From Candidatus Krumholzibacteriia bacterium (GTDB lineage: Bacteria > Krumholzibacteriota > Krumholzibacteriia > JAJRXK01), in NCBI GenBank assembly GCA_035268685.1, contig DATFKK010000021.1, positions 1 to 64,000 of the forward strand: DNA of 64,000 bases. The letters run 5' to 3'. The notes under the pieces were generated by a model, which ran no database searches, was not told where the DNA came from, and saw only the letters and a list, made by a program, of their open reading frames with translations. The position numbers were made by a program, and so were the translations under genes. Shown in pieces: positions 1,765 to 9,395 of this stretch (position 1 is the stretch's first letter; each line of letters opens with the position of its first letter).

Positions 1765-2451
1765 TCAGAACAGTTCGATCTCGCCCTGGTCCATGTGTTC
1801 CTGGCCGACACGGCGGTGGGTTCCGGCCCACTCCTCGCGCATCTTCCCGATCGCCTCGCCCAGCTCGAGAAGCCGTTCGGCGAAGCGCCGCATCTCGTCG
1901 GCGTCGGCGTCACGCAGGTTCACGGCCGTGTCCTGGATCTGCTCGCTCAGGTCGTCGAGACGGTCGAGGCGGCCGAGGATCTCGTCGGCGAGCTGGTTGA
2001 CGAGGTCGTCGACCTGCAGGGACTGCAGGACCACCGAGAGGGCATCGCCCATGCGGCGGCCCAGGTCGTGGACGTGTTCACCGTCGAGCTCCGCCGGCTC
2101 GACCTCGATACCCGAGCGCGACGCCAATGTGGCCAGACGTTCCCGCAGGTGGCGACGGATCTCCGACGGGCCCCGCTCGTCGTCGAGGTCGGTCATCACG
2201 GCCTGCAGGATGTCGGCGGTGTCCTGGACGAAGTGCTTGAGGCCGGCCCGCGCCAGGCGGCGGTCGACGTCCTCGTGGCCGAGGACGGACTCGATCAGGC
2301 GTTCGGTGGCGTCGCTGGTGAGCGAGCGGATCTGCTCGAGCGATTGGCGCACGCCGCGGGTCTGGTCGCCGGTGGCCGGCTGGAGTTCCTCGCTCAGGGT
2401 GGCGAAGGCCACCGATGGCGAGCGCCGGTGGTCGTCAGAAGAGTTCGGCAT
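1765..2451 (-). CDS. CheZ-like chemotaxis phosphatase candidate
   Basis: A 228-aa, almost wholly helical, soluble protein that ends the chemotaxis operon. The stretch [15 protein letters not shown] (about 144-158) places Asp149 and Gln153 in the DxxxQ spacing of the CheZ active site, which corresponds to the E. coli motif F-Q-D-L-T-G-Q. Helical, charged sequence follows, and the last nine residues are MDQGEIELF. This acidic, Phe-ending tail resembles in character the CheY-binding C-terminal peptide of CheZ. The ATG overlaps the end of the receptor gene by 17 nt. The family call rests on motif and context, not on whole-length similarity; it could be a diverged helical adaptor. Confidence 0.5.
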
Positions 2452-3700
2452 CGCCCCAGTCCATCTGCTGCTGTTCCACCGGTTGGTGGGACAAGGTGTC
2501 GAAGAGTCCGTGCTTCGCGCGAAGGGTCCGGGCGAGCTGCTCGACGGTGGCCTCGGCCTGGCCCAGGCTCGTCGGATCGGACAGTTTCCAGGTCTCGTCG
2601 CTGAAGGTCTCGGCCGCGTACAGGCGCAGGAGATTGGTGCGTTGGCTCACATGCTCGATCAACTGACGCACCATGTCCTCGAACTGCAGGGCCGTGATCG
2701 CCAGACCGACCTCGTTGCCGATGTTGCCGGCGATCGCCTCGACCTCGGCCATGGTCGACTTGGCGTGTTCGTTGATCTCGTGCAGGTCCTGCAGCATGGT
2801 GTCGATCTCGGACTTCGAGGCCAGGGCCGACTGCATGTCCTCGCCGGCCATGGTCTCCATGATCTCTCGAGCCTGGTTGATCGAGGTGTGCGAGCCCTCG
2901 ACCAGTGAGCGGATCTCGTCGGCGAAGCCGTGGCTGTCGGCGGCGAGCTTGCGGACTTCGTCGGCGACCACCATGAAGCCCCGCCCGGCGCTACCGGCAC
3001 GCGCGGCCTCGATGTTCGCGTTCAGCGCGAGCAGGCGGGTGCGCTCGGCGATGTTCTGCACTTCACCGATTCGTCCCGCCACCTGGTCCATCTGTCCGCT
3101 GATGTCCTGGATCCGGCGGACCATGTCCTGACTCTGCTGTGAGATCGCCGAGATCTGGTCGACGAAGGCGCCGACGAGGCGGTTGTTCTCCTGGGCGAAC
3201 TCCTCGAGGCTCACCCGGCGGGATCCGTCGTCGCTCTCGTCGCTCATGATCGAGCGTACCTTCGTCAGCTGCATCTGGGTGCCCTCGTTCATGCCCGTGA
3301 AGCTGGCGCCGAGCTTGCCGACCGCGTCCCCGATCAATCCGCGGACCTGCTCGAGCTCCTGCTGGACCAGCGACACCTGCTCGATCTGCGGGCTCATCAG
3401 CTCCCAGAGGAGCATGAACGTAGCGGGACAGAAGCCTTCGTGGTCGTGATCGTCGGCCTTCACGCGCGGTCGTCCGTCGGGTTCGTCGGCGCCCGATCCG
3501 ACGTGTGAGATCCATCCTCCGAATGCCAACGTGGCCACCCCGCTTCCGCCGGCGGCCACCAGCCAGGTGGGGCTCCCGAACAGGAACAGGAGCAGCGGCG
3601 TCGCACCGAGTACGACCATGAGCGAGAGGCGGATCCACCGTCCACGAACGGACGCGTCCGCAACGGCGAAAGGGGAGGGATGGGGTGGCCAGCGCAACAT
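2435..3700 (-). CDS. methyl-accepting chemotaxis receptor with CheZ-like C-terminal motif
   Basis: About 421 aa from the ATG at 3700, which has GAGGT about 9 nt upstream and lies just beyond the receiver-stub stop; an in-frame ATG at 3754 is less likely. Two closely spaced membrane segments (about 25-45 and 47-67) leave no periplasmic sensor domain. The cytoplasmic hairpin tip is classical ([20 protein letters not shown], then [15 protein letters not shown]). After it comes an extra helical region with [15 protein letters not shown], in which D342 and Q346 make a CheZ-type DxxxQ. The protein ends in MDWGDAELF, almost the same tail as the downstream CheZ-like protein. It may sense membrane or cytoplasmic signals. 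Confidence 0.85.
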
Positions 3701-3704
3701 GATG

Positions 3705-3995
3705 TCAGACCTCGATGGATCGGAAGGTCGTCGTCGAGTCCAGGGTGCGTGCACGGTCGAGGATCGTGGCGCACATCGAACCCAGGGGGGGCGGTTCGTC
3801 GGTCGCGGCCGGGCGATGGGTGGATGCAGACATGTCCCGGACGGAACTCGTGGCCCCGTCCTGGGCCAGGGTCGCCGACCCGGTGTGCTTCGTCTCGATC
3901 AGGTCCGTCGCACCGTCACCGACGGAATCCCGCGTCTCCCGCAGTATCTGTCGAACCAGGGCCGAGTCGTCGACGATCAGGACACGTGTGGTCAT
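3705..3995 (-). CDS. truncated receiver-domain protein (CheB-position stub)
   Basis: A 96-aa product (three residues longer if the GTG at 4004 is used). Only the first strand and helix of a response-regulator receiver are recognisable: [16 protein letters not shown], with the acidic pair. What follows is low-complexity Thr/Ser/Ala-rich sequence with no phospho-acceptor Asp, no Thr/Lys signature and no CheB esterase domain in any frame of the interval. The sequence up to the break is CheB-like, and CheB is the expected partner next to CheD. A GAGGG box lies upstream, and the stop is 5 nt before the receptor ATG, so the frame looks maintained. It could be a decayed cheB or a small adapted protein. 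Confidence 0.5.
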
Positions 3996-4009
3996 CGTGT
4001 TCACGTCCC

Positions 4010-4660
4010 TCAGAAGAGCTCGACGGCGCCGCCGACGGGTTTGCGATCGATCGTGCGGCGGTAGTTCTCCTCGCGCTTCACGACCTCGCTCTCGACCTGC
4101 TTCAGTCTCTTGACCTGCACCCTCCCCGAATGGGGTTCGTAGTAGAGCTTGCGCGGGAAGCGATCGCCGACGTCCTCGGCCGAGACACGGAAGCCCTCGA
4201 TCTGCAGGAACTCACGCACGAAGGCGATGTTCTTGCCGCCGATGTCGGCCATCGAACTGAGGATCTTTCCGCCGCCGAAGATCTTGACCTCGAGCCGATC
4301 GCGACTCCCGCCGTGCTTGAGGATGTCGTTGATCATGTTCTCCATCGCGTAGGTGCCGTACCGGTTCGCGGCCGACGCGCTGCGCGCCACGTGGCGGGCC
4401 AGGCTCGCCGGGTCGTCGTTGGCGGGCAGCATGAAGTGGTTCATGCCGCCGACACCCAGCACGGTGTCGCGCACGCAGGCCGACACGCAGGAACCGAGCA
4501 CCGTCATGATCAGGTGATCCTCGGTCGTGACGTAGTACTCGCCCGGATTCAGCTTCGCGGCGAAGCGACCGTAGCGGCGGTCCCAGTAGAAGCCGATGTG
4601 TTCGAAACCCCGCAGTGGGCGCGGCGGACTCGGAGCCGGGGCAGTGGCGTGCGCGTTCAT
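4010..4660 (-). CDS. cheD: chemoreceptor glutamine deamidase CheD
   Basis: CheD deamidates specific Gln residues in chemoreceptors and, with CheC-type partners, tunes adaptation. The 216-aa protein has the catalytic Cys58 in [12 protein letters not shown] and the conserved His75 in GGMNHFMLP. The family block [14 protein letters not shown] and the glycine-rich KIFGGGKI are also present. It has an unusual N-terminal extension ([12 protein letters not shown]) and a C-terminal extension of about 30 charged residues that ends in GGAVELF, echoing the ELF ends of the two downstream operon products. The start ATG overlaps the stop of the CheW-fusion gene (ATGA), so the two are translationally coupled. 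Confidence 0.93.
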
Positions 4661-6309
4661 CGGTGGACCGCCTTCCGATCGCGGCTGCGGCCGGGAATCC
4701 GGGTGGGGCGGTCGTCGATCAGGGTCTTGATCTCCCTGGCCGTGTCCGCACTACGGCCGGCGAGATCGCGGGCCTCGGCGGCGACCACCGCGAAGCCAGG
4801 GCCCCGCTCGCCGGCTCGTGCGGTCTCGACGGCGGCGTTCAGCGCCAGCAGGTTGGTCCGGAATGCGATGTCGTCGGCTGCGCTCGTGATGCTGGCCGCT
4901 GCCTGGCGCGTGGGCTCGACCACGGAGTCGAGCAGACGGTTGACCCCCGCGGCCAGGTTCTTCGTGGAGCCGACGTAGCGGTCGGGATCGATGCGTCGGT
5001 CCAGCCGTCCGGCCACGGCGTTCTCGATCAGGGCCTGGATCTCCCGTTCGGCGTCGACCTGGTCGCTGACGTCGCTCCACTCGTTGCAGATGCCCAGATA
5101 CCGGCCTTCGTCGTCGAGGACGGCGGTCACGTTCAGGTCGAAGACCAGTGGGCCGACCTGGACGCGGGCGCGGTGGGGGAGGCTCGACGGATCGCGCAGC
5201 AGCGCGCGCACCCCTTCGAGATCGGCGTGGAAGGCGTCGATGTCGAAACCGACGAGACGATCGATGTCGAGTTGCGGACACACGCGCTTCAAGGCGGCTT
5301 CGTGGCGACGAAGGGTACGGACGGTGGCCTGGTTCACGTAGGTGATGTTCAGCTCGGGGTCGCAGATCACGATGTTCGTGCTCGCCCCGTCGACGGCGGC
5401 GCGCAGCCGAGTCGCCTCGATGTCGGCCGCACGTTGCCAGCGGTCGGGCTCGGGTCCGGGCACGCTGAGCGACGCGACCAGTCCGGCGATCTCGGTCGCG
5501 AGCGTGCGCAGGTGGGCCGGGCGGAGGCCGACGGCGTGCAGGGTCGGGGCCCAGTCCCGGACCAGTTCCTCGAGCCGGTGCGGATGGTCCAGGGCCTCGG
5601 CGGCCAGACCCACGGCCGTACGGAGGCGCTCGACGGCGACCGGCTCGACGTCGACGGCGGGAGCCACCGCACGGACCCGTTCCACCAGGTGTCCGGCCAG
5701 AGTTCCGAGGCGGTCCGTCGGGACCACGTCGAACGAAGCGGTGTCGAGCAAGCGCGACGGATCGAGCAGGACGAGCATGCGGTCGTCGACGATCCCCAGT
5801 CCCGAGACGACATCGAGGTCGGCACTCGCCCCGAAGTCGGGCGCGGGCTCGATCGCTTCGCGGTCGAGATCCCGGACGTCGTTCACCGCGTCGACGACCA
5901 CGCCGATCACGCGCTCGCCGATCGCGTCGGCGTGTACGCGCAGGACGATGTTCACCGTGGTCGGTCCGTAGACCGTGGGCTCCAGGCCGAAGCGGGCACG
6001 GAGGTCGACGATCGGCACGATCGTTCCCCGTAGCTCGATCACGCCCTTCACGAAGTCGGGGGTGTTCGGCAGGGGCTTGGCGTCCTCCCAGCCCTTGATC
6101 TCCTGTACGTGCACGATGTCGACGCAGTACTCCTCGCCGGCGAGCACGAAGGTCAACACCTTCATGTCGTCTTCACGTCGGACCATGGGGCCGCGTTCGT
6201 CGAATGCCCGCACCGAGGCCATCGGGTCCTCGTGGCGTCCGGCGACCACGGAGCGGTCGACGCGAGAGTCCGTGCCGTGGGGGCGGGAGCGTGCGACGTC
6301 GATCATCAT
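4657..6309 (-). CDS. CheW-PAS-half MCP signalling fusion
   Basis: A 550-aa cytoplasmic protein. Residues 49-190 are a CheW coupling domain ([20 protein letters not shown], then [16 protein letters not shown]). Residues 200-300 are helical. Residues 303-415 are a PAS domain of the MCP/Aer2-like type ([19 protein letters not shown], ending [12 protein letters not shown]). Residues 416-532 carry the N-terminal helix, the hairpin tip ([18 protein letters not shown]) and a short descending helix. The chain then switches to an Arg-rich 18-residue tail and stops, so the descending helix is incomplete. No membrane segment is present. It would couple a PAS signal to a CheA encoded elsewhere. The first in-frame ATG lies 4 nt after the cheY stop. 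Confidence 0.85.
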
Positions 6310-6313
6310 CGAA

Positions 6314-6676
6314 CTACCCCAGCACCTTCTTGATCACCGCGAGTAGCTGCTCGGGGTTGAAGGGCTTGACCAGCCAACCCGTGGCCCCGGCCTGACGGCC
6401 GTCGCTCTTACGGCCGTCCCCCGATTCGGTGGTGAGCACCAGCATCGGCGTGAACTTGTAGCTGGGCAGCTGACGCAGCTCCTTGATCAACGTGATGCCG
6501 TCCATGTTCGGCATGTTCACGTCGGTCAGGACCAGGTTGAAGTTTCCGGTCTTGGCCAGGTCGAGGGCCTGCACGCCGTCTTCTGCTTCGGTCACGGTGT
6601 GGCCGGCGCTCTGGAGCGTGACCGTCACCATCTGGCGCAACGAGCGCGAGTCGTCGACCGCGAGAATCGTCGCCAT
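6314..6676 (-). CDS. cheY: CheY-type single-domain response regulator
   Basis: A 120-aa stand-alone receiver. The acidic pair is D8-D9, the phospho-acceptor is D52 in [12 protein letters not shown], the switch Thr is T82 or T83 in LTTES, and the conserved Lys is K104 in VKPFNPEQ. There is no output domain. It is the first gene of the chemotaxis operon and most resembles the CheY regulators that sit with CheA-MCP clusters, so the partner kinase must be encoded outside the window. The SD-like GGGAGAAG lies about 8 nt before the ATG. The CheZ-like protein and the motif-bearing receptor at the far end of the operon are plausible dephosphorylation partners. Confidence 0.95.
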
Positions 6677-6962: not shown

Positions 6963-9395
6963 ATGTCCGACGAGCGAGCGATCGACACTCCCTTGCAGAT
7001 GATCGGAGGCCGGGTCCGCCGTCGACCGACCTCGCCGGAGGCGAGCGCCGCTCTGCGTCGGCTCCGACGCCTGGGTGCGGCGGCCCTGATCATGCTCGCC
7101 GGGGGGTGGCTGCCGGGGATCTGGAGCCATCTCGTCGGCGCGTCCGCCGGTGCCGTCCTGATCGTCGAACTCGTCCGGATGCATCGTCCGCACGTGCTGG
7201 CCCCGCGGGTGTGGACCGCCGGCCTGGCGATCGCGGGGGCACCGCTGCTGGTTCCGGGAGCCTCGGACGTCGGCCGCGTGCTGTTCTCCACGGCGATCGT
7301 GGTGTTCCTGCTGCTGCGGCGACACCGTGTCCTGGGTGTTCTTCCGTCCTGGCACCGGGCGCTGGTCTTCGGCGGGTGTGTCGGTGCGATCGTACTGATG
7401 GTCCTCGTCCCCGATCTGCGTGAGGTCCGCGGCTGGTTCGGCGAGATCCTGCACGGTGTGCACGGGAGTGCCCGGCTGACGCTGGTGGTGGCCGCGGCCC
7501 TGACCGCGGTCCATCTGTTCCTGGGCATCCGCCTGCACTTCCTGCGACTGCGTCCGAAGCTGGCCGTGGCCGGCTTCCTGATCGCGGCCGTACCCGTGGT
7601 CCTGCTGGCCGCGTTGGCGGTGGTGGTCGTCTACGGCGTGGTGGGCAGTAGCACGAGTTCCCACGCACAGTCGGTGCTCGCCGGCTGGCTCGACCGTGTG
7701 GCAACGGGAGAACTGCACGGTCCGGGACCCTTCGAGGAAGGTTTCGGCGCGGTCGGAATCGCGGCGGAGATCGAGAGCCCGGCTCCGCCGCCCTGGCGCG
7801 ACGAACTGGCCGACGCGATCGAGCACTCCGGCTTCGGCCCCGTTCCGGCGGGCCTGTGGGTCCGTCGGAACGGCGAGATCTGGGCCGTGCGGACCGGCGT
7901 GGACGAGGACGGGCAGCGCGTCCTGCTCGGCGGCCGACGGCTCGGACCGAAGAGCATCCAACGCCTGGCCGACCAGCTCGGCTGCGAGGTCGACCTGATG
8001 GGAGCGGTCGAGGATTCCGATCTGCATCTGACTCTCGGCGGGTCTCGTTCCGGCGGGATCCCGATCGGCGAGGGCGAGGGCCGCCTGCGGGCGAAGCCCC
8101 GGTCGGTGGACACCACGACGGAGTCTTCCCCGTGGACCGAGCAGTGGAGGATCTTCGGGGGAGCGACCTTCGAGGTCCACGATCTCGGAGGGGGGAGCCT
8201 CGACGCGACGGGTGCCCTGATCCGGCTACGGACCCGGCCCTCCGACCTGGTGGCGCTGGTCACCTCGGACGCGAACGTGGTGAATCAGATCGTCGGGGTC
8301 GCGCTGCTGGTGATCGCGGCCCTGTTCCTCATGCTCGAGGCCCTGGCGCTGTACTTCGGTCTGCGGATCGTGGGAGGGATCACCCTGGCCGTGAGCGGAC
8401 TGCACCAGGCGATGCGGCGACTGGCCCGGGGCGATCTCGATACCCGCGTCGACCTGCCCAACCAGGACGAATTCGGTGACCTGGCCGAGGGCTTCAACGA
8501 CATGACCCGGGCGATCCACGTGGCACAGGACCAGATCGTCGAGAAGCAACGACTCGAGCAGGAGATCGCGACCGCCCGCCGGATCCAGATCCGTCTGCTC
8601 CCCGAGTCGCTCCCCGAAGTGGAGGGCTACGAGATCGACGGCGGCAGTACGCCGAGCAAGCAGGTCGGTGGAGACTACTTCGACTTCATTCCGCTGCCCG
8701 ACGGCCGGCTGGGCGTGGCCGTGGCCGACGTCAGCGGCAAGGGCATTCCGGCCGCGCTGCTCATGAGCAACCTCCAGGCGAGTCTGCAGGGACAGCTCCT
8801 GCACGAAGCGCAGGTGTCCGAGGTCGTCGAACGCATGAACGACCTGCTGGCCCGCAGCACCGACACGCACATGTTCGCGACCTTCTTCTACGGCGTGCTC
8901 GAACCCGCGACCGGTCGCGTGGTGGGGGTGAACGCGGGTCACGATCCGCCCCTCGTGGTGCGGGCCGACGGCACACTCGAGACCCTGCCCGCCGGCGGTC
9001 TGATCCTGGGGATGCTTCCCGGGCAGCGCTACACCGAGTGCAGCACGGTGCTCGCTCCGGGCGACAGCATGATCCTCTACACGGACGGGATCACCGAGGC
9101 GATGGGGCCGGGAACGCGGATTCCGGGACTGGACCTGCGGGCCCTGCCCGCGTCGACCGAGCCCACGATCGAGCGGCACGACCGCTCGATCGACGACGAG
9201 AACGGCGACGACGAAGAAGAGATCGTCACCAACTTCTTCGGCGAGGACCGGCTCCGCGAGATCGCGGTGGCACGACGCCACGAGAGCGCGGCGTCGATTC
9301 GCCGGGCGATCCTCGACGCGGTCTCTCGGCACGTGCGTGACGTTCCTCAGTCCGACGACGTGACGTTGGTGGTGATCAAGCGCCGGGCAGCCTGA
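6963..9395 (+). CDS. membrane SpoIIE/RsbU-type PP2C serine phosphatase with HAMP
   Basis: 810 aa. About six hydrophobic segments lie between residues 38 and 228. A roughly 210-residue non-membrane domain (230-440) follows, then a last membrane helix (443-468), a HAMP linker (467-520) with GDLDTRVDLPNQDEFGDLAE, a short coiled coil (520-545), and a PP2C-type phosphatase domain (555-807). Metal-binding motifs are all present: VGGDYFDF, VADVSGKGIPAALLMS, NAGHDPP, YTDGITEA and SDDVTLVV. Such proteins dephosphorylate STAS-type anti-anti-sigma factors or similar phosphoserine partners; none is adjacent. An acidic insert (RSIDDENGDDEEE, about 741-753) interrupts the domain. It is divergent from the chemotaxis operon. 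Confidence 0.9.
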   Translation: MSDERAIDTPLQMIGGRVRRRPTSPEASAALRRLRRLGAAALIMLAGGWLPGIWSHLVGASAGAVLIVELVRMHRPHVLAPRVWTAGLAIAGAPLLVPGASDVGRVLFSTAIVVFLLLRRHRVLGVLPSWHRALVFGGCVGAIVLMVLVPDLREVRGWFGEILHGVHGSARLTLVVAAALTAVHLFLGIRLHFLRLRPKLAVAGFLIAAVPVVLLAALAVVVVYGVVGSSTSSHAQSVLAGWLDRVATGELHGPGPFEEGFGAVGIAAEIESPAPPPWRDELADAIEHSGFGPVPAGLWVRRNGEIWAVRTGVDEDGQRVLLGGRRLGPKSIQRLADQLGCEVDLMGAVEDSDLHLTLGGSRSGGIPIGEGEGRLRAKPRSVDTTTESSPWTEQWRIFGGATFEVHDLGGGSLDATGALIRLRTRPSDLVALVTSDANVVNQIVGVALLVIAALFLMLEALALYFGLRIVGGITLAVSGLHQAMRRLARGDLDTRVDLPNQDEFGDLAEGFNDMTRAIHVAQDQIVEKQRLEQEIATARRIQIRLLPESLPEVEGYEIDGGSTPSKQVGGDYFDFIPLPDGRLGVAVADVSGKGIPAALLMSNLQASLQGQLLHEAQVSEVVERMNDLLARSTDTHMFATFFYGVLEPATGRVVGVNAGHDPPLVVRADGTLETLPAGGLILGMLPGQRYTECSTVLAPGDSMILYTDGITEAMGPGTRIPGLDLRALPASTEPTIERHDRSIDDENGDDEEEIVTNFFGEDRLREIAVARRHESAASIRRAILDAVSRHVRDVPQSDDVTLVVIKRRAA

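Follow-up and report, generated by a model that had tools for sequence, protein, structure and literature searches.

Two overlapping genes near one end of a contig from a Candidatus Krumholzibacteriia bacterium raise the question of whether a chemoreceptor can itself terminate the signal that its array sends out. The window analysed here comprises 64,000 nucleotides (GenBank assembly GCA_035268685.1, contig DATFKK010000021.1), in which an initial annotation had described a chemoreceptor (P0001) with a CheZ-type DxxxQ motif and a CheZ-like C-terminal tail, followed by a soluble 'CheZ-like' neighbour (P0002). CheZ dephosphorylates CheY by means of Asp143 and Gln147, the very residues that it needs for water orientation. 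Translation of the open reading frames (ORFs) placed the receptor's Asp–Gln pair (D342, Q346) and ELF terminus, as well as those of the neighbour (D149, Q153; GEIELF), where they had been reported.

Both genes belong to a short minus-strand che operon encoding CheY, a CheW–Aer2-like fusion, CheD, a CheB remnant, P0001 and P0002. The candidate substrate is a single-domain CheY (6314–6676, minus strand; Pfam Response_reg, 1.8e-27) in whose sequence D8/D9, the phosphoacceptor D52, an Asn at D+2 and K105 can be read. The fusion of CheW with an Aer2-like PAS receptor (4657–6309, minus strand; Pfam CheW, 1.8e-35; Aer2, 1.2e-68) ends within the hairpin, covering only positions 33–96 of the 172 in the MCPsignal profile, while the F7-type CheD (4010–4660, minus strand; NCBIfam PRK13487, above cut-off) has a C-terminal ELF tail of its own (GGAVELF). 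The CheB remnant (3705–4004, minus strand; NCBIfam CheB match in two stretches) consists of the beginning of the receiver followed directly by the C-terminal part of the methylesterase, the middle being lost. P0001 (2435–3700, minus strand; 421 amino acids from an ATG at 3700) and P0002 (1765–2451, minus strand; 228 amino acids) overlap by 17 bp, and neither cheA nor cheR adjoins the cluster. Degradation of this F7-type cluster, affecting the middle of CheB, the Aer2 hairpin, cheA and cheR, could reflect either decay after horizontal gain or a collapse in the assembly. Divergent from the operon and adjoining it lies a SpoIIE-type PP2C phosphatase with a HAMP domain (6963–9395); a serine phosphatase has also been reported in F7 stage 1 clusters.

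P0001 is organized as two predicted membrane helices, a receptor hairpin, a helix bearing DxxxQ, a linker and the ELF tail. Modelled helices span residues 16–40, 45–69, 92–153, 165–365 and 379–403, the first two making up the predicted transmembrane region, which is hydrophobic by eye. A Pfam search recovered the methyl-accepting signalling hairpin (PF00015; residues 188–324; 2729–3139, minus strand) and found no HAMP or ligand domain. The CheZ-type signature A337-L-Q-F-E-D342-M-V-R-Q346 (2663–2692, minus strand) aligns with FQDLTGQ of CheZ, and the C-terminal tail ending in GDAELF (2438–2467, minus strand) is predicted to be disordered (pLDDT <50 at 416–421).

The McpA family profile, of which P0001 forms one row, retrieved it from its own genome at an E value of 4.9e-119. 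A Vibrio relative found by tblastn covers residues 121–421 (4e-22), is preceded by cheB within a complete CheY-CheA-CheW-MCP-CheR-CheD-CheB cluster, and carries both ALQFTDIIVQ and GEVELF; VCA1088 and CttP/PA0180 are McpA-like receptors of F7 systems, the Vibrio gene occurring in the same neighbourhood (PMC7184735, PMC7534058). The last five residues of P0001, D-A-E-L-F, are non-aromatic at position 2 and so lack the x-[HFYW]-x-x-[HFYW] tether, the definition by which the conserved C-terminus of McpA-like receptors is tether-less (PMC7184735). P0001 is a full-length McpA-like receptor, of the same kind as CttP/PA0180 and VCA1088, from a che cluster of F7 type. The receptor hairpin of the initial annotation is borne out (MCPsignal, 8e-26), in a known family whose C-terminus had already been published as strikingly conserved, its role unclear (PMC7184735). 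The papers found describe these proteins as receptors only and make no mention of a CheZ-type site; within the open-access literature searched, we found neither a receptor with CheZ activity nor an McpA-like receptor linked to CheZ or to a phosphatase.

Is the motif a property of one receptor or of the family? A motif-baited scan of a genome collection returned 80 loci, nearly all of them McpA-like receptors in full F7-type clusters of Gamma- and Betaproteobacteria; the Magnetococcales, the Mariprofundaceae and an Acidobacteria MAG contributed isolated cases. Since these loci were baited with the motif, conservation of the Asp–Gln pair was counted only in an unbaited set, in which a full-length family profile searched against 369 gammaproteobacterial genomes gave matches in 94 genomes, with 118 sequences read. 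Baited sequences had gone into the building of this profile; members without Asp or Gln should still appear in the search, because of the 404 positions in the model only about 9 belong to the motif, and the cut-off of 1e-50 lies far below typical scores. D342 and Q346 were each present in 118 of the 118 sequences, with no substitution such as Asn or Glu, and the terminal Phe (F421) in 117/117. These three are the sole invariant columns outside the hairpin, in a post-hairpin region with a median entropy of 3.1 bits, and they are joined by the near-invariant Q339 (117/118) and F340 (115/118, the remainder Tyr). The relaxed signature [AS]xx[FY][QE]DxxxQ was present in 92 of the 118 and the exact AxxFQDxxxQ in 9. 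The occurrence of the signature exceeds chance: among the 6,521 ORFs (1.13 million residues) of the retrieved loci, the relaxed form was present in 72 McpA-like proteins, whose loci had in part been baited by the motif, in 6 true CheZ proteins and in 1 sequence elsewhere. The 51 other receptor ORFs in this material all lacked it, and no further receptor ORF read from the genome that contains the window has the motif. At the level of sequence, the receptor with a CheZ-type site is real, and it holds across the McpA-like family.

The likeness to CheZ extends beyond the pair itself. A second conserved CheZ motif, AxxF(Y)Q, lies immediately N-terminal of DxxxQ (PMC7750401), and the McpA consensus reads [AS]-L-Q-F-[EQ]-D-x-x-x-Q; P0001, with ALQFED, has Glu for Gln and shows this motif only in relaxed form, and P0002 has Val and Asp there. 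Alignment by HHalign of an McpA C-terminal profile with 30 CheZ sequences gave an E value of 9.2e-5, with Asp on Asp and Gln on Gln; the TFF-tailed subgroup gave 1.4e-4 and a second receptor subfamily 9.1e-5, against 0.06–0.27 for reversed profiles, 0.01 for the best column-shuffled profile and 0.09 and 0.18 for other receptors. Masking the motif raised the E value to 0.011–0.06, so the likeness is mostly motif-borne, which leaves room for convergence or for a role in binding only. When 6,543 ORFs were ranked with a CheZ HMM, an McpA-like receptor (L100) came directly after the true CheZs (E = 0.002), and the Pfam CheZ model matched this receptor in its own genome at 3.3e-4; the same model weakly matched 4 of 48 McpA-like members, and other helical families matched more of them. 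For P0001 and P0002 there was no Pfam CheZ (PF04344) match at E values up to 1, and PDB sequence searches with P0002 and with the C-terminal profile returned no CheZ. The distance from the Gln to the C-terminus is 61–80 residues in McpA and mostly 64–72 in CheZ. McpA and CheZ thus share a genuine likeness, most of which resides in the motif, and homology and convergence are inseparable here.

Related combinations occurred elsewhere in the material. A second chemoreceptor subfamily (L275–L279, L145) has QFQD[VI]xRQ together with an [IV]ELF tail, and one of its receptors matches Pfam CheZ at 1.2e-4, under the curated cut-off. McpA-bearing genomes also encode small proteins (L133–L138) that look like divergent CheZ: their N-terminus is rich in Lys and Ala, they contain VAQEFQD[LI]AGQ, and their C-terminus is FliM-like (for example, LSQKDVDSLLNDL). 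In an Acidobacteria genome, a 227-amino-acid ORF (L141, 725–1408, minus strand) has a FliM-like start (MDQSEIDALLAGG) and MQFQDITRQ, possibly a CheY docking peptide and a CheZ-type site in reverse order.

The claimed CheZ-like motif and tail fared differently. Signature, spacing and profile alignment all bear out a CheZ-type DxxxQ; the CheZ-like nature of the tail was rejected, as its anchored profile score against the VDDLLxSLGF tail of CheZ fell under the permutation mean, a fraction of 0.88 of the permutations scoring at or above the tail itself. The tail has company within its own systems instead: a [DE][IV]ELF C-terminal peptide was present in 18 of 24 CheD proteins read from McpA-bearing clusters, and tail types co-vary by cluster, IELF McpA occurring with WEEF Aer2 and, in the few TFF cases, ITFF McpA with DFTRF/DFVRF receptors. 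In F7 clusters an unnamed protein of about 196 amino acids shares this ELF tail with CheD and McpA (loci among L014–L102, for example, L029:2579–3169 and L087:2299–2892). The shared ending makes a docking partner within the system, common to the ELF-tailed proteins, likely, and it recalls the CheR/CheB tether peptide.

P0002 also bears on what the C-terminal part does. It carries D149-x-x-x-Q153 (1993–2007, minus strand) within S-L-Q-V-D-D149-L-V-N-Q153, and its tail MDQGEIELF (1768–1794, minus strand) aligns with McpA tails. The McpA HMM (hmmsearch, E = 1.3e-22) matched it in two segments, model positions 62–111 and 297–396 of 396, which correspond to the N-terminal helix and the C-terminal third of McpA with the hairpin absent; reversed and shuffled controls gave 0.006 or worse. 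Pfam found no MCPsignal in P0002, searches of Pfam, NCBIfam and PHROGs yielded no useful match, and tblastn against plasmids yielded none. Asp, Gln and tail are kept, while Val replaces the conserved Phe at D−2. By these matches P0002 is a McpA relative with the hairpin lost, and the designation 'CheZ-like' is withdrawn. Parallel cases come from the Rhodocyclaceae (L066, about 178 amino acids) and the Mariprofundaceae (L089), in which the receptor tip is absent, and from L080, in which it is degenerate, motif and tail being kept in all three. Retention of motif and tail after loss of the kinase-control tip makes it likely that this module has a job of its own.

A search of relatives covered 98 genomes, and the window's own was the only one with an McpA-like receptor (E ≤ 1e-45) and likewise the only one in which P0002 had a match (E ≤ 0.001). 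This confinement suggests that the McpA-like locus was gained horizontally, with cheA, cheR and most of cheB lost afterwards. The host has CheW-domain, CheR and CheX genes elsewhere, the CheX within another che cluster, and no CheZ was found in its genome at E ≤ 0.001. Of 50 genomes that encode McpA-like receptors, 46 have a true CheZ as well, which speaks against the family merely making good a missing cellular function; in stage 1 and 2 (F7/F6) genomes, cheZ goes with F6 (PMC7184735). The idea that the host needs P0001 for want of any CheY phosphatase is weakened by its CheX and by the CheZ of most McpA genomes. Since the cluster is degraded, the P0001 copy is perhaps poorly functional; the finding is the McpA-like family rather than the window copy, and P0001 alone is a poor test bed.

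AlphaFold monomers, from whose input three plasmid-record rows were left out, place D342 and Q346 of P0001 inside a helix (mean pLDDT 75.5, pTM 0.43) and show P0002 as helical (pLDDT 74.7, pTM 0.63), both tails falling below 50. The best 50 Foldseek matches of the two models included receptors and generic coiled coils and no CheZ. As monomers, the models fit the idea of a CheZ-type site.

We favour, at a probability of about 0.6 and from sequence, the reading that McpA-like receptors including P0001 are array-embedded CheZ-type phosphatases of phosphorylated CheY (CheY-P). Such a receptor would be anchored in the membrane, enter the receptor array through its hairpin and, on the C-terminal helix past that hairpin, present an active site of CheZ type. 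Once the receptor had dimerized, D342 and Q346 would insert into the catalytic pocket of CheY-P and position a water molecule for removal of the phosphate, acting like Asp143 and Gln147 of CheZ. The flexible ELF tail might concentrate a partner, CheY or else CheB, CheR or CheD, near this site. An off-switch for what is presumably CheY would thereby sit within the array, and P0002 would be a soluble, receptor-derived form that has lost the hairpin.

The same observations can be explained by docking without catalysis, in which the Asp–Gln face binds CheY-P or another receiver and the receptor serves as a CheY sink or a CheY-P-sensitive input. Invariance of the pair demonstrates selection rather than chemistry, P0002 keeps Asp and Gln with Val at the conserved Phe in a manner that might suit a binder, and most McpA genomes have a separate CheZ. 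Strict retention of exactly Asp and Gln in 118 sequences nevertheless fits catalysis better, and we consider docking unlikely, though the strongest of the alternatives. Somewhat less probable is an adaptation module, the ELF tail being a pentapeptide-type tether of the CheR/CheB kind that recruits CheB, CheR or CheD, with Asp and Gln serving packing or that enzyme. Within a cluster, McpA tails co-vary with the tether of Aer2, which speaks for it, as does the IELF peptide that likewise ends CheD and the protein of about 196 amino acids. In Pseudomonas aeruginosa, however, McpA shows no binding to any of the four CheR proteins, according to work cited in PMC7184735, and recruitment explains neither an invariant D-xxx-Q in a CheZ context nor the retention of motif and tail in proteins without a methyl-accepting hairpin. 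If the tail alone is meant, such a tether is compatible with the phosphatase reading.

A third alternative is structural coincidence, in which LQFEDxxxQ would be a packing motif of the membrane-proximal helix bundle that resembles CheZ by chance. The CheZ signal does reside mainly in 10 residues, and cross-matches are common among helical proteins. Yet it is two polar residues that are invariant, amid core positions that change; hardly any of the 6,521 ORFs outside McpA and CheZ has the extended signature; the distance to the C-terminus matches that of CheZ; and the pair recurs in a second receptor subfamily. We hold this explanation to be improbable, the least favoured of all those considered.

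A wider version of the phosphatase reading, to which we give slightly less than even odds, would take in the second receptor subfamily: both groups would be array-built CheY-P phosphatases providing the F7 off-switch and cross-talk in F6 arrays, and copies that shed the hairpin would have become free phosphatases. F7 systems, from which the chemotaxis machinery of E. coli descends, would gain an off-switch thought to be missing, and McpA within F6 arrays would offer a direct route of cross-talk between two chemosensory systems. Soluble CheZ-type enzymes could then derive from receptors, and a chemoreceptor would be a direct terminator of the signal, beyond sensing alone. Two published puzzles surround McpA, its strongly conserved C-terminus and the part it plays for F7 from a position within the F6 array (PMC7184735); both would be solved if the receptor had an active site of CheZ type.

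P0001 resembles the McpA-like F7 receptors (CttP/PA0180 of Pseudomonas, VCA1088/Mlp44 of Vibrio) in its membrane anchor and signalling hairpin; these adjoin cheB/cheD or precede cheY-cheA and, as in P0001, have a conserved C-terminus without the CheR pentapeptide. It differs from them in that relatives of its host lineage are without the family and its cluster has lost cheA and cheR. CheX, CheC and FliY phosphatases catalyse the same reaction on CheY-P as is presumed for McpA-like receptors, with an unrelated fold and an ExxN motif. CheZ (PF04344) shares with the McpA-like proteins DxxxQ on a long helix, together with AxxFQ (mostly in relaxed form, as in P0001), a flexible linker of similar length and a C-terminal Phe, whereas P0001 and P0002 show no family-level match and have another tail, and the McpA site forms one protein with a membrane anchor and a receptor hairpin. 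In E. coli, CheZ is held in arrays by short CheA and is likewise a CheY off-switch at the receptor array; there it is a separate protein, whereas the McpA phosphatase would be part of the receptor itself.
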